Source: Bacteroidota bacterium
GTDB lineage: Bacteria > Bacteroidota > Bacteroidia > AKYH767-A > OLB10
DNA length: 38,342 nt
NCBI GenBank assembly: GCA_963169675.1
Contig: CAUJFJ010000238.1
Span: forward strand, 1 to 38,342
Direction: 5' to 3'
Under the pieces are notes generated by a model. That model saw nothing but the letters and a program-made list of their open reading frames with translations, had not been told where the DNA came from and did not search any database. Every line of letters starts with the position of its first letter. Position 1 is the stretch's first letter. Shown here piece after piece: positions 902-5,182 of the stretch. Position numbers and translations under genes: made by a program.

Positions 902-1702
902 TTACATTTTTACAAGGCGTGATTTTACTGAGGCGCCTTCTGATATTACTTCTACCAGATATACTCCGGCGGGAAGTTCAGCAATATCAAATGCTGTTGC
1001 TTTGCCAAAATTCTTATTTGAAGTATTCAAATCCATCCATAATTTTCCGGCAACATCAAAAATACGAACCGACTCTAATTCGGTATCTGCAGAAACAGAA
1101 ACTTTTCCTGTTGCAGGATTTGGGAAAATGCTAAAACCGCTGATTGCATTTTGCTCTCCAATACCAACTGTAGAACAAGGTACCGGACTCAATCCATGTG
1201 TTCCAAAGAATGTTGCGAATGTTGTTGCATTTGCAATAGGCCACATATCGGTCTCGACAATATTTTTGTTTGGTGCAATTAAAATATAAGTTGGGAATGC
1301 TCCGATTCCGTATGCAGTTACAACTGCATTTCCACCACCATCAATACCACTGACTGAAGGATATCCCGGTGAACCGCCAAGTACGCTATTTTCATAAGCA
1401 ATTACTTCAGCATCGGTGTCACCAACATCCATTGCTATGAAGAAGATGTCTTCAGTGTTACAACCAAAGTTCTCATAGGTATCACGGTAATAAGGTGAAG
1501 TTGCAATGCAGGGTGGACAAGTTGTAAAGAAGAAATCCATACACACATACTGACCTGCATTGAGGATATCAAAGAGATTATGTACATCACCATTCACATC
1601 GGTAACGGTAAAATCGACAGCCTGTGTGAGTGTAGTTTGTGCCGAAACCTTCCCCGTAAGGAAGAACCCGACTGTAAGCATTAATAGTAGAAGTTTTTTC
1701 AT
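902..1702 (-). CDS. secreted thioredoxin-fold protein with T9SS type A sorting domain
   Basis: Predicted to be an exported thiol redoxin delivered by the type IX system. I chose the ATG at 1702: it gives MKKLLLLML, a typical signal peptide ending VSAQ near residue 22. A longer reading adds ten unlikely residues. A thioredoxin-like domain follows, with CPPC at about residues 62-65 in FFTTCPPC and a cis-Pro-like FPTY later. The last 85 residues, starting near FSIFPNPATGKVSV and ending LVEVISEG..KSRLVKM, are a type A sorting domain. The CPPC active site differs from the common CGPC, so redox behaviour may differ. It is monocistronic, with a terminator at 836-868 and candidate promoter boxes at 1804-1811 and, less exact, 1721-1728. 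Confidence 0.88.
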   Translation of the reverse strand: MKKLLLLMLTVGFFLTGKVSAQTTLTQAVDFTVTDVNGDVHNLFDILNAGQYVCMDFFFTTCPPCIATSPYYRDTYENFGCNTEDIFFIAMDVGDTDAEVIAYENSVLGGSPGYPSVSGIDGGGNAVVTAYGIGAFPTYILIAPNKNIVETDMWPIANATTFATFFGTHGLSPVPCSTVGIGEQNAISGFSIFPNPATGKVSVSADTELESVRIFDVAGKLWMDLNTSNKNFGKATAFDIAELPAGVYLVEVISEGASVKSRLVKM

Positions 1703-2761: not shown

Positions 2762-3994
2762 TTAATACAGCTGTCTGACTTTGATCGTATGCTTCACCTT
2801 TTTCAATTCTGAAAGTGCTTTTGATGAGGTGCGTTTATCGACATCTACAACCACATAACCAATATCGGTGTTCGTCTTTAGATACTGTCCAAGAATATTG
2901 ACTTTTAACTTCGATAGAATACCATTTATTTCAGAGAGAACGCCCGGCACATTCTTGTGAATATGAAGCAACCGGTGGGCGTTTTGCTGCACGGGCAGAC
3001 TTAAAGCTGGCACCGACAAGGAACCGGTACTGGAGCCTGTCTCGAGAAACGAGATTAATTTTCCTGCTACATCCAATCCAATATTCTCCTGTGCTTCCAT
3101 TGTAGAACCGCCAATATGCGGAGTCAGAATTACATTGGTCATTCCCTGCAATTCACATGCAAATGGATCTGTATTTCCTTTAGGTTCATTTTCGAAGACA
3201 TCAATTCCTGCCCCGGAAATATGACCTTTTTCAATCATTTTTTTCAGAGCTTTAAGATCTACCACATCTCCGCGACTCAGGTTGATCAGGATTGAACCCT
3301 TCTTCATTTTTTTGAGTCTTGTTAAATCCATGAGCTTACGTGTTTGCTCACCTCCAGGCACATGAAGTGTTACAATATCAGAAGCACGCAGTAATTGATC
3401 GAGGGAATTTGATTTGACTGCATTTCCAAGACTAAGTTTTGGTTCCACATCATAAAAAATAACTTTCATACCAATGCTTTCGGCCAAAACAGAAACCTGC
3501 GAGCCAATATGTCCATAACCTACAATTCCCAGCACCTTACCACGTACTTCGTTGCAACCAGTACTGCTTTTATCCCATACGCCTGTATGTGCAGCAGCAT
3601 TTTTTTCAGGAATGCGACGTGCGAGGTTAATGCAATGTCCAATCACCATTTCAGCTACTGAACGCGTGTTACTGTAGGGCGAATTAAAAACTGCAACACC
3701 TTGTGATGTTGCCTCATCCATTGCTATTTGATTGGTTCCAATGCAAAATGCACCTGCTGCCAGCAACTTCTCCGCCTTACTTAAAACAGTTGCAGATAGC
3801 TGCGTTTTGGAACGGATGCCGATAAGATGCACGTTTTTAATTTTTGCAATTAACTCTTCTTCCGGCAACGACCCTTTTAAAACTTCAATAGAAGTATATC
3901 CATGGTTCCGAAATAATTTGAGAGCCTGTGGATGTACGCCTTCCAGCAGGAGAATGTTAATTTTATCTTTGGGATAAGATGTTCCGGATTCCAT
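2762..3994 (-). CDS. serA: D-3-phosphoglycerate dehydrogenase
   Basis: Catalyses the first step of serine synthesis: NAD-dependent oxidation of 3-phosphoglycerate to 3-phosphohydroxypyruvate in the cytosol. It has 410 residues, the same length as E. coli SerA, and aligns with it by eye throughout. Visible features are the NAD-binding GYGHIG (159-164) and the catalytic R241, E270 and H293 (in TPHIGGST). A C-terminal ACT domain follows from about 340. H346, N348 and N366 match the serine-binding residues of the E. coli enzyme, so feedback inhibition by serine is likely. Trp140 in GVWDK is also kept. It is transcribed alone, divergently from the T9SS gene at 4175, from a -7 box at 4024-4031. Confidence 0.96.
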   Translation of the reverse strand: MESGTSYPKDKINILLLEGVHPQALKLFRNHGYTSIEVLKGSLPEEELIAKIKNVHLIGIRSKTQLSATVLSKAEKLLAAGAFCIGTNQIAMDEATSQGVAVFNSPYSNTRSVAEMVIGHCINLARRIPEKNAAAHTGVWDKSSTGCNEVRGKVLGIVGYGHIGSQVSVLAESIGMKVIFYDVEPKLSLGNAVKSNSLDQLLRASDIVTLHVPGGEQTRKLMDLTRLKKMKKGSILINLSRGDVVDLKALKKMIEKGHISGAGIDVFENEPKGNTDPFACELQGMTNVILTPHIGGSTMEAQENIGLDVAGKLISFLETGSSTGSLSVPALSLPVQQNAHRLLHIHKNVPGVLSEINGILSKLKVNILGQYLKTNTDIGYVVVDVDKRTSSKALSELKKVKHTIKVRQLY

Positions 3995-4023
3995 AAAATG
4001 GCTTTAATGAATGATTTCGATGG

Positions 4024-4031
4024 CAAAATTA
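4024..4031 (-). promoter_or_regulatory. -7 box TAATTTTG, serA
   Basis: Exact TAnnTTTG on the minus strand, giving a leader of about 25 bases before the ATG at 3994. Confidence 0.65.
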
Positions 4032-4082: not shown

Positions 4083-4123
4083 CATTAACGTTTCATTAAC
4101 GCACGTTAACGGGTCATTAACCG
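4083..4123. promoter_or_regulatory. four helically phased TTAAC direct repeats, probable operator
   Basis: TTAACG at 4085-4090, 4096-4101 and 4106-4111, and TTAACC at 4117-4122, three of them preceded by CA. Spacing is 11, 10 and 11 bases, so all lie on one face of the helix. The block sits immediately upstream of a TTTG (4124-4127) and the -7 box at 4144. Such spacing is typical of activator or response-regulator sites bound by side-by-side dimers; the regulator is not known. Confidence 0.7.
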
Positions 4124-4143
4124 TTTGGAGCACCTCAGCCGGA

Positions 4144-4151
4144 TACTTTTG
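4144..4151 (+). promoter_or_regulatory. -7 box TACTTTTG of the T9SS cargo gene
   Basis: Exact TAnnTTTG with a TTTG at 4124-4127 at about -33. Transcription would start near 4156, which excludes the GTG at 4154 and supports the ATG at 4175. Confidence 0.7.
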
Positions 4152-4174: not shown

Positions 4175-5182
4175 ATGAAAACAATAAAAATCGCCGTCCT
4201 CACCCTGATGCTTTATGGCACAGGAACAGCTGTATTGGCTCAGGATCAGAAAAAATTTAAAGTTATGATCAGTAAGGAAATTAATGGGGAATCTGTTCTC
4301 ATTGATACGACCTTCAATTCTAAAACCGATATGCAGAACTATTTAAAATCGGTGAACACTGACATTAACATCACTGATGACATGGTTATGATTAAAGATG
4401 AATTTAAGGATCTTGAAAACCTTCAGGAAATAAATGTGGAAGTTGGTGATGTGGATTTCCGTAAAATAGAGATGGGCCAGCTGGAAGAAGAACTTAAAAA
4501 ATTGAATATTGATCTGGAAGAACTTAAATCTAACTCCAAAGTTTTGGAATTAGATCATGAAAACATGGAAGAAGTTATAGAAACTGATGGATCGGGAGAA
4601 GTTAAAAAAGGAACTGTCCGAATGTTTATTAATGATGATCAAACAGGAGATGATTCCGAAAAGAAACTTAAAACTAAAACTGTAATTGTTTCGTGTGATC
4701 CGGAAATGAAAATGAAACCGGGGGCATCAAAAACTTTTATTTGGAAAGACAGTACAGGTACAGCACATAAAGAAATTCGCATTGTTCGCACAGATAAAGA
4801 TGCAGCCGATAAAGGTGAAACCAAAACCATCAAAATCGAATCAGAAGCAGTCCCACCTCCACCACCACCTGTGAAAAAAGAAAACGAAAATCAATCGTTA
4901 TTAAAAGCAGAAGATTACAAACTGGATGCAACGGAGTTTAAAATTTATCCGAATCCTTCACAAGGAAAAATAAATGTATCCTTTAAAATTAATCAGCCGG
5001 GAGTAATCAATTTGAAAATTCTGGATTCATATGGAAGAGTTGTCATAGAGGATGAAATAACACCGACTGAAGGCTATTTTCAGAAAGAATATACAATTGA
5101 AGGTAAAGCAAAAGCTACTTATTTGCTGCAGTTAAAACAAGGCGACAAATGGCGTCATGAAAAAATAATTGTTGGCGCGTAA
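4175..5182 (+). CDS. secreted acidic protein with T9SS type A sorting domain
   Basis: Function unknown. The ATG at 4175 begins MKTIKIAVLTLMLYG, a signal peptide ending VLAQ. The mature protein (about 310 residues) has a charged, Asp/Glu-rich middle with predicted helices and DTTFNSKTDMQNYL, and a proline run PPPPPP. It ends in a type A sorting domain from FKIYPNPSQGKINVSF to HEKIIVG, which marks it for type IX secretion and surface attachment or release. I recognise no enzymatic motif. Four phased TTAAC repeats lie just upstream of its promoter, so expression may respond to a specific signal such as envelope stress; that is inference. A strong terminator follows. Confidence 0.85.
   Translation: MKTIKIAVLTLMLYGTGTAVLAQDQKKFKVMISKEINGESVLIDTTFNSKTDMQNYLKSVNTDINITDDMVMIKDEFKDLENLQEINVEVGDVDFRKIEMGQLEEELKKLNIDLEELKSNSKVLELDHENMEEVIETDGSGEVKKGTVRMFINDDQTGDDSEKKLKTKTVIVSCDPEMKMKPGASKTFIWKDSTGTAHKEIRIVRTDKDAADKGETKTIKIESEAVPPPPPPVKKENENQSLLKAEDYKLDATEFKIYPNPSQGKINVSFKINQPGVINLKILDSYGRVVIEDEITPTEGYFQKEYTIEGKAKATYLLQLKQGDKWRHEKIIVGA

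Follow-up and report, generated by a model that had tools for sequence, protein, structure and literature searches.

What is the function of four closely spaced copies of the pentamer TTAAC that precede a gene for a secreted protein in a Bacteroidota bacterium? The copies lie in a 38,342-nucleotide stretch of DNA (referred to here as the window), upstream of a plus-strand gene at 4175 to 5182. This putative target gene codes for an acidic protein of 335 amino acids, with NGxxxxIDTTF near the N terminus and a T9SS type A sorting domain. A preliminary description of the DNA had labeled the product a T9SS cargo, and profile searches bore this out: the C-terminal Por_Secre_tail domain scored 39 bits with PF18962 (cut-off, 27) and 36 bits with TIGR04183 (cut-off, 23). 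The window codes for another T9SS cargo at 902 to 1702 (minus strand), a thioredoxin-like (AhpC/TSA) protein that carries a sorting domain, and no array was present in front of that gene.

Direct reading and a regular-expression search placed the TTAAC starts at 4085, 4096, 4106, and 4117, as originally described. Specifically, unit 1 (4085 to 4089), unit 2 (4096 to 4100), unit 3 (4106 to 4110), and unit 4 (4117 to 4121) are all on the plus strand and are spaced by 11, 10, and 11 bp; the array was also aligned with 31 other sites. When all 5-mers in the 38-kb window were considered, TTAAC alone had four copies at this phasing. The preliminary description had proposed a genome scan for three or more phased units. 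In the whole 3.87-Mb genome, the three-unit pattern matched a single site, which was the window array (two overlapping matches), and the reversed-control pattern yielded no matches. A chance repeat in AT-rich intergenic DNA might be considered, since AT-rich upstream regions contain many TTAA words. However, based on the TTAAC frequency in loci of the same genome, a four-unit phased array was expected about 0.0002 times per genome, and about 0.002 times per genome on the assumption of a threefold higher TTAAC density between genes. These expectations, and the recurrence of the array with the same spacing in dozens of genomes that include distant relatives, leave chance with essentially no probability, in line with the doubt that had been expressed at the outset.

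Of 120 relatives scanned, 59 had the array pattern, most often at a single locus in each genome, and the frequency of the pattern was far above that of the reversed control. The shared element, TTAAC-N5/6-TTAAC-N5-TTAAC-N6-TTAAC-N22-TAnnTTTG, occurred in many families of the class Bacteroidia, and its geometry was conserved at the array loci of relatives while the flanking sequence varied. Homologues of the 4175 gene product were also encoded downstream of arrays in relatives. The preliminary description had held that orthologues lacking the array would speak against a regulatory site; instead, arrays were located upstream of homologues that were 97%, 29%, and 26% identical.

A total of 80 array neighborhoods were inspected. 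The first 40 were biased toward overlapping (four-unit) matches and toward those that had a homologue of the window gene nearby. Most of the second 40 were picked with R1, a sequence-only profile that includes the -7 box discussed below. Kinase genes were used in neither selection. Two protein clusters were represented at about 31 of the first 40 loci: a histidine kinase of about 550 amino acids and an OmpR-type regulator of about 231 amino acids. The other flank of the array carried a divergent, fast-evolving gene for a secreted protein, with NG...(I/V)DTTF in its N-terminal part and often a T9SS sorting domain at its C terminus. This layout recurred in the second 40 neighborhoods, including those in genomes with multiple paralogous pairs of kinase and regulator, most of which had their own array (L263 to L265 in genome G315 and L266 to L267 in genome G324). 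Such genomes are suited to testing the insulation of paralogous operators. In 41 of the 49 four-unit arrays inspected, the start of a divergent kinase gene was less than 400 bp away, and the regulator gene then followed.

In the window, the divergent neighbor is a serA-like dehydrogenase gene (2762 to 3994, minus strand; 2-Hacid_dh and ACT domains), an arrangement that was confined to this genus. It had been suggested that the array could also affect serA, and this idea did not hold up. The array was present at only 1 of 80 serA loci (the 99%-identical locus L062) and was absent from the other 79, and the candidate serA -7 box (TAATTTTG, 4024 to 4031, minus strand) lies 53 bp from unit 1, whereas the conserved distance is 26 to 28 bp. 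Because the serA loci were free of arrays save the near-identical one, serA was rejected as an array partner, and by this comparison it is a bystander outside the conserved module.

The conserved arrays are flanked by two promoters. On the cargo side of the window array, the -7 box TACTTTTG (TAnnTTTG; 4144 to 4151, plus strand) is exactly 22 bp past unit 4. The promoter box of Flavobacterium psychrophilum lies at -12 to -5 (PMC9723704), and transcription of the 4175 gene is predicted to start at about 4156. To describe the position of the box, we used 33 arrays that were picked by TTAAC-type units alone; loci chosen with R1 were excluded, as that profile includes the box. An exact TAnnTTTG was found on the cargo side at offset 22 in 25 of the 33 arrays, and the other offsets in the range of 10 to 44 yielded none. 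On the kinase side, an exact TAnnTTTG was found on the opposite strand, 26 to 28 bp from unit 1, again in 25 of 33. At L146, L152, L155, and other kinase-linked arrays, the kinase genes (minus side) began about 5 to 10 nucleotides past TAnnTTTG, which probably leaves the kinase mRNAs with little or no leader.

The preliminary description had read a TTTG at 4124 to 4127 as a -33-like element. This TTTG and the -7 box are just 16 bp apart, and an alignment of 32 sites showed no corresponding motif at that position; indeed, no -33 motif of any kind was conserved in the alignment. Because of this, unit 4, at about -39 to -35, appears to occupy the place where the -33 contacts would fall, and the TTTG at 4124 is probably incidental.

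Taken together, the data make it very likely that the array is an operator at which an RprY-like response regulator of the OmpR/PhoB family binds in tandem and activates the gene for the secreted T9SS protein. The units are head-to-tail direct repeats with a 10- to 11-bp period, as in OmpR/PhoB operators. A site for a tandem-binding activator of this type had been suggested previously, and the suggestion gained support from the finding that, across the class, the array adjoins the genes for such a regulator and a kinase and has a rigid geometry with respect to the cargo promoter. Phosphorylated regulator would bind head to tail to the four units on one face of the helix, and the bound regulator, at about -71 to -35, would stand in for the missing -33 element and activate sigma-A transcription from the TAnnTTTG at 4144, leading to production of the secreted protein. 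The OmpR family member PhoP of Mycobacterium tuberculosis binds as a tandem dimer to direct repeats with an 11-bp period, and three to four motifs are bound more tightly than two (PMC4832192). We infer binding, activation over repression, dependence on phosphorylation, and the regulator that acts here. Activation at the cargo promoter is suggested by the constant spacing of 22 bp between unit 4 and the -7 box in a promoter that lacks a -33 element, and autoregulation by units 1 and 2, which adjoin the kinase promoter and are kept there after the cargo gene is gone. In the most common layout, the same array faces the divergent kinase-regulator operon and would mediate this autoregulation. In the lineage of the window, where the cargo gene lies beside serA, control would be exerted in trans.

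As for the identity of the regulator, RprY (NF051850) was the top NCBIfam match for all array-linked regulators tested. The equivalog cut-off of 370 bits was not reached by the regulators encoded on contigs C245 (284 bits) and C186 (246 bits) of the window genome or by those of ten array-linked relatives (300 to 349 bits). We used the promoter of nqrA, the best known of the reported RprY targets, as a positive control, and it was negative: no TTAAC array was found there in four genomes that have an RprY over the cut-off. By these measures, the array-linked regulator is RprY-like rather than RprY, because its scores are below the cut-off and nqrA lacks the array. The RprY papers that we searched reported no DNA motif for RprY, TTAAC included, and a search of the literature for a connection between TTAAC and response regulators of Bacteroidetes gave nothing relevant.

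In the window genome, the cargo gene and the kinase-regulator pair are on different contigs, with the pair on C245, and the same separation was observed in genomes G001, G004, and G010. In these four genomes, the cargo gene had four units and the kinase promoter had two (L190, L260, and L259) or three (L258). The 16-mer that spans units 1 and 2 of the window array, TTAACGTTTCATTAAC (4085 to 4100), is identical at G000:C245:7761-7776, before the RprX-like kinase gene. On the kinase side, a TAnnTTTG box, TATTTTTG, follows at a distance of about 28 bp, and there is no cargo gene at this locus. Retention of units at both separated loci is what would be predicted of a trans-acting regulator that binds both. 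The C245 regulator is up to 61% identical to array-linked regulators, falls within their clade (tree of 68 rows; support, 98/95), and has their recognition helix, YFxxRSMDVFxxxLRKY. This helix is near-constant in array-linked regulators, and two further OmpR-type regulators encoded by the genome have a different one. Because the contigs differ, the C245 pair was matched to the cargo gene by homology, and it probably controls the window cargo gene in trans.

The second pair, on C186, is also RprX/RprY-like and has a degenerate four-unit operator of the TAAC type at G000:C186:10943-11011 (L191). The layout of this operator is that of the window array, with TATATTTG at +22 and TAAATTTG on the kinase side, and it was the second-best match to the model in the genome (E value, 0.04). 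The divergent gene there codes for a probable lipoprotein of 378 amino acids that looks propeller-like by eye. Both the C245 and C186 regulators had PF00072 (receiver) and PF00486 (Trans_reg_C) domains over the cut-offs; the C245 kinase could be aligned over its full length to array-linked kinases and the C186 kinase only in the catalytic part. Since the C186 locus has an operator of this design, degenerate but with both boxes in place, cross-regulation between the two systems is possible.

It follows that the window array might be bound mainly by the C186 regulator, or by both regulators. The C186 operator, its rank in the model search, and a similar recognition helix point in this direction, but the C186 regulator belongs to a separate clade (support, 100/99) that was found in few relatives, many genomes with strong arrays lack the C186 type, and it is the C245 kinase promoter that holds the identical 16-mer of units 1 and 2. 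On balance, we consider a main or shared role of C186 unlikely. A different concern is the sign of the regulation. If the array were a repressor site, the regulator would block RNA polymerase and the cargo would be expressed when the regulator is inactive; RprY of Porphyromonas gingivalis, which binds its own promoter, is reported to repress stress genes (PMC6032018, PMC5706477), and the array is near the kinase promoter. Against this, the cargo promoter has no conserved -33 element, and the array stops shortly before the -33 region, with a constant 22 bp separating it from the -7 box. This is the layout of an activator that takes over the -33 contacts, and repressor sites have no need of such fixed spacing, so repression seems quite improbable. 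The minus strand of the units (AACGTTAAT, reverse complement) resembles the LytTR box. This resemblance is what favors a LytTR-type regulator, and we judged such a regulator highly improbable and ruled it out on the linked genes, as the linked regulators are of the Response_reg plus Trans_reg_C type across the class. The preferred reading thus remains activation by an RprY-like regulator, probably that of C245.

The preliminary description had also raised a new regulon. In the window genome, a broad regulon was not seen, as no second strong site was found. A scan of this genome for units 3 and 4 plus the box with two mismatches gave 9 matches versus 17 for the control, so we kept only the window site and C186. 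In the absence of further strong sites, the regulon may be limited to the 4175 gene and those of the two-component systems. Three TTAAC units with 10- to 11-bp spacing were found before moxR (AAA ATPase) operons in two relatives from different families (L176:9442 and L177:9574), but the moxR locus of the window genome (L339) lacked an array, and moxR was rejected as a regulon member there. Array-like sites were also located upstream of genes for large exported or outer-membrane proteins of about 815 to 835 amino acids (L268:4956, L274:4974, and L275:3965), which are possible regulon members. These weaker arrays, though few in number, would fit a role in the envelope.

Systems of the RprXY type occur widely in Bacteroidota, and the papers searched gave no binding motif for them. 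The array provides an exact operator and promoter geometry that is open to test, and it would tie the system to a T9SS-exported protein. The operator stays with its gene when the gene and the regulator part, and the array would make it possible to recognize regulons in the sequences of Bacteroidota from the gut, the mouth, and the environment.

The PhoP boxes of Bacillus subtilis read TTAACA. The operators described here share tandem binding to direct repeats of about 11 bp with those of M. tuberculosis PhoP (PMC4832192), and they differ from PhoP/PhoB operators in their linked genes, among which no phosphate gene was observed, and in the Bacteroidota -7 promoter. The closest likeness by profile is to RprX/RprY of Bacteroides fragilis and P. 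gingivalis, which is also a kinase-regulator operon and whose regulator binds its own promoter in P. gingivalis (PMC5706477). In three of the four genomes with an RprY over the cut-off, the rprX promoter had clustered GTTAA words (L319:3857-3923, L320:3603-3692, and L321, reverse complement, 3955-4021), some of which were phased at 10 and 21 bp. In contrast, neither the gene for a secreted cargo nor its promoter is present at these rprX loci, a difference that adds to the array-free nqrA and the sub-threshold scores of array-linked regulators.

In Escherichia coli, the small exported protein CpxP is encoded divergently from the response regulator and kinase genes cpxRA, with the operator between them. 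The genome layout described here is alike, with an exported protein divergent from regulator and kinase genes and an operator between; in contrast to CpxP, the product is larger, acidic, and often a T9SS cargo. Because of the resemblance to cpxP-cpxRA, the layout suggests that the cargo may feed back on the kinase, a possibility on which the N-terminal motif common to the cargo proteins also bears. We tentatively propose, as an idea that is more likely wrong than right, a class-wide circuit in which a single four-unit operator, read in both directions, lets an RprXY-like envelope-sensing system drive both its own genes and that of a T9SS-exported protein, and the long periplasmic domain of the kinase reads the conserved NG...DTTF segment of the cargo. 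If so, the cell would sense T9SS function, with periplasmic build-up of cargo signaling an export block, and the circuit would be a CpxP-like device for type IX secretion.
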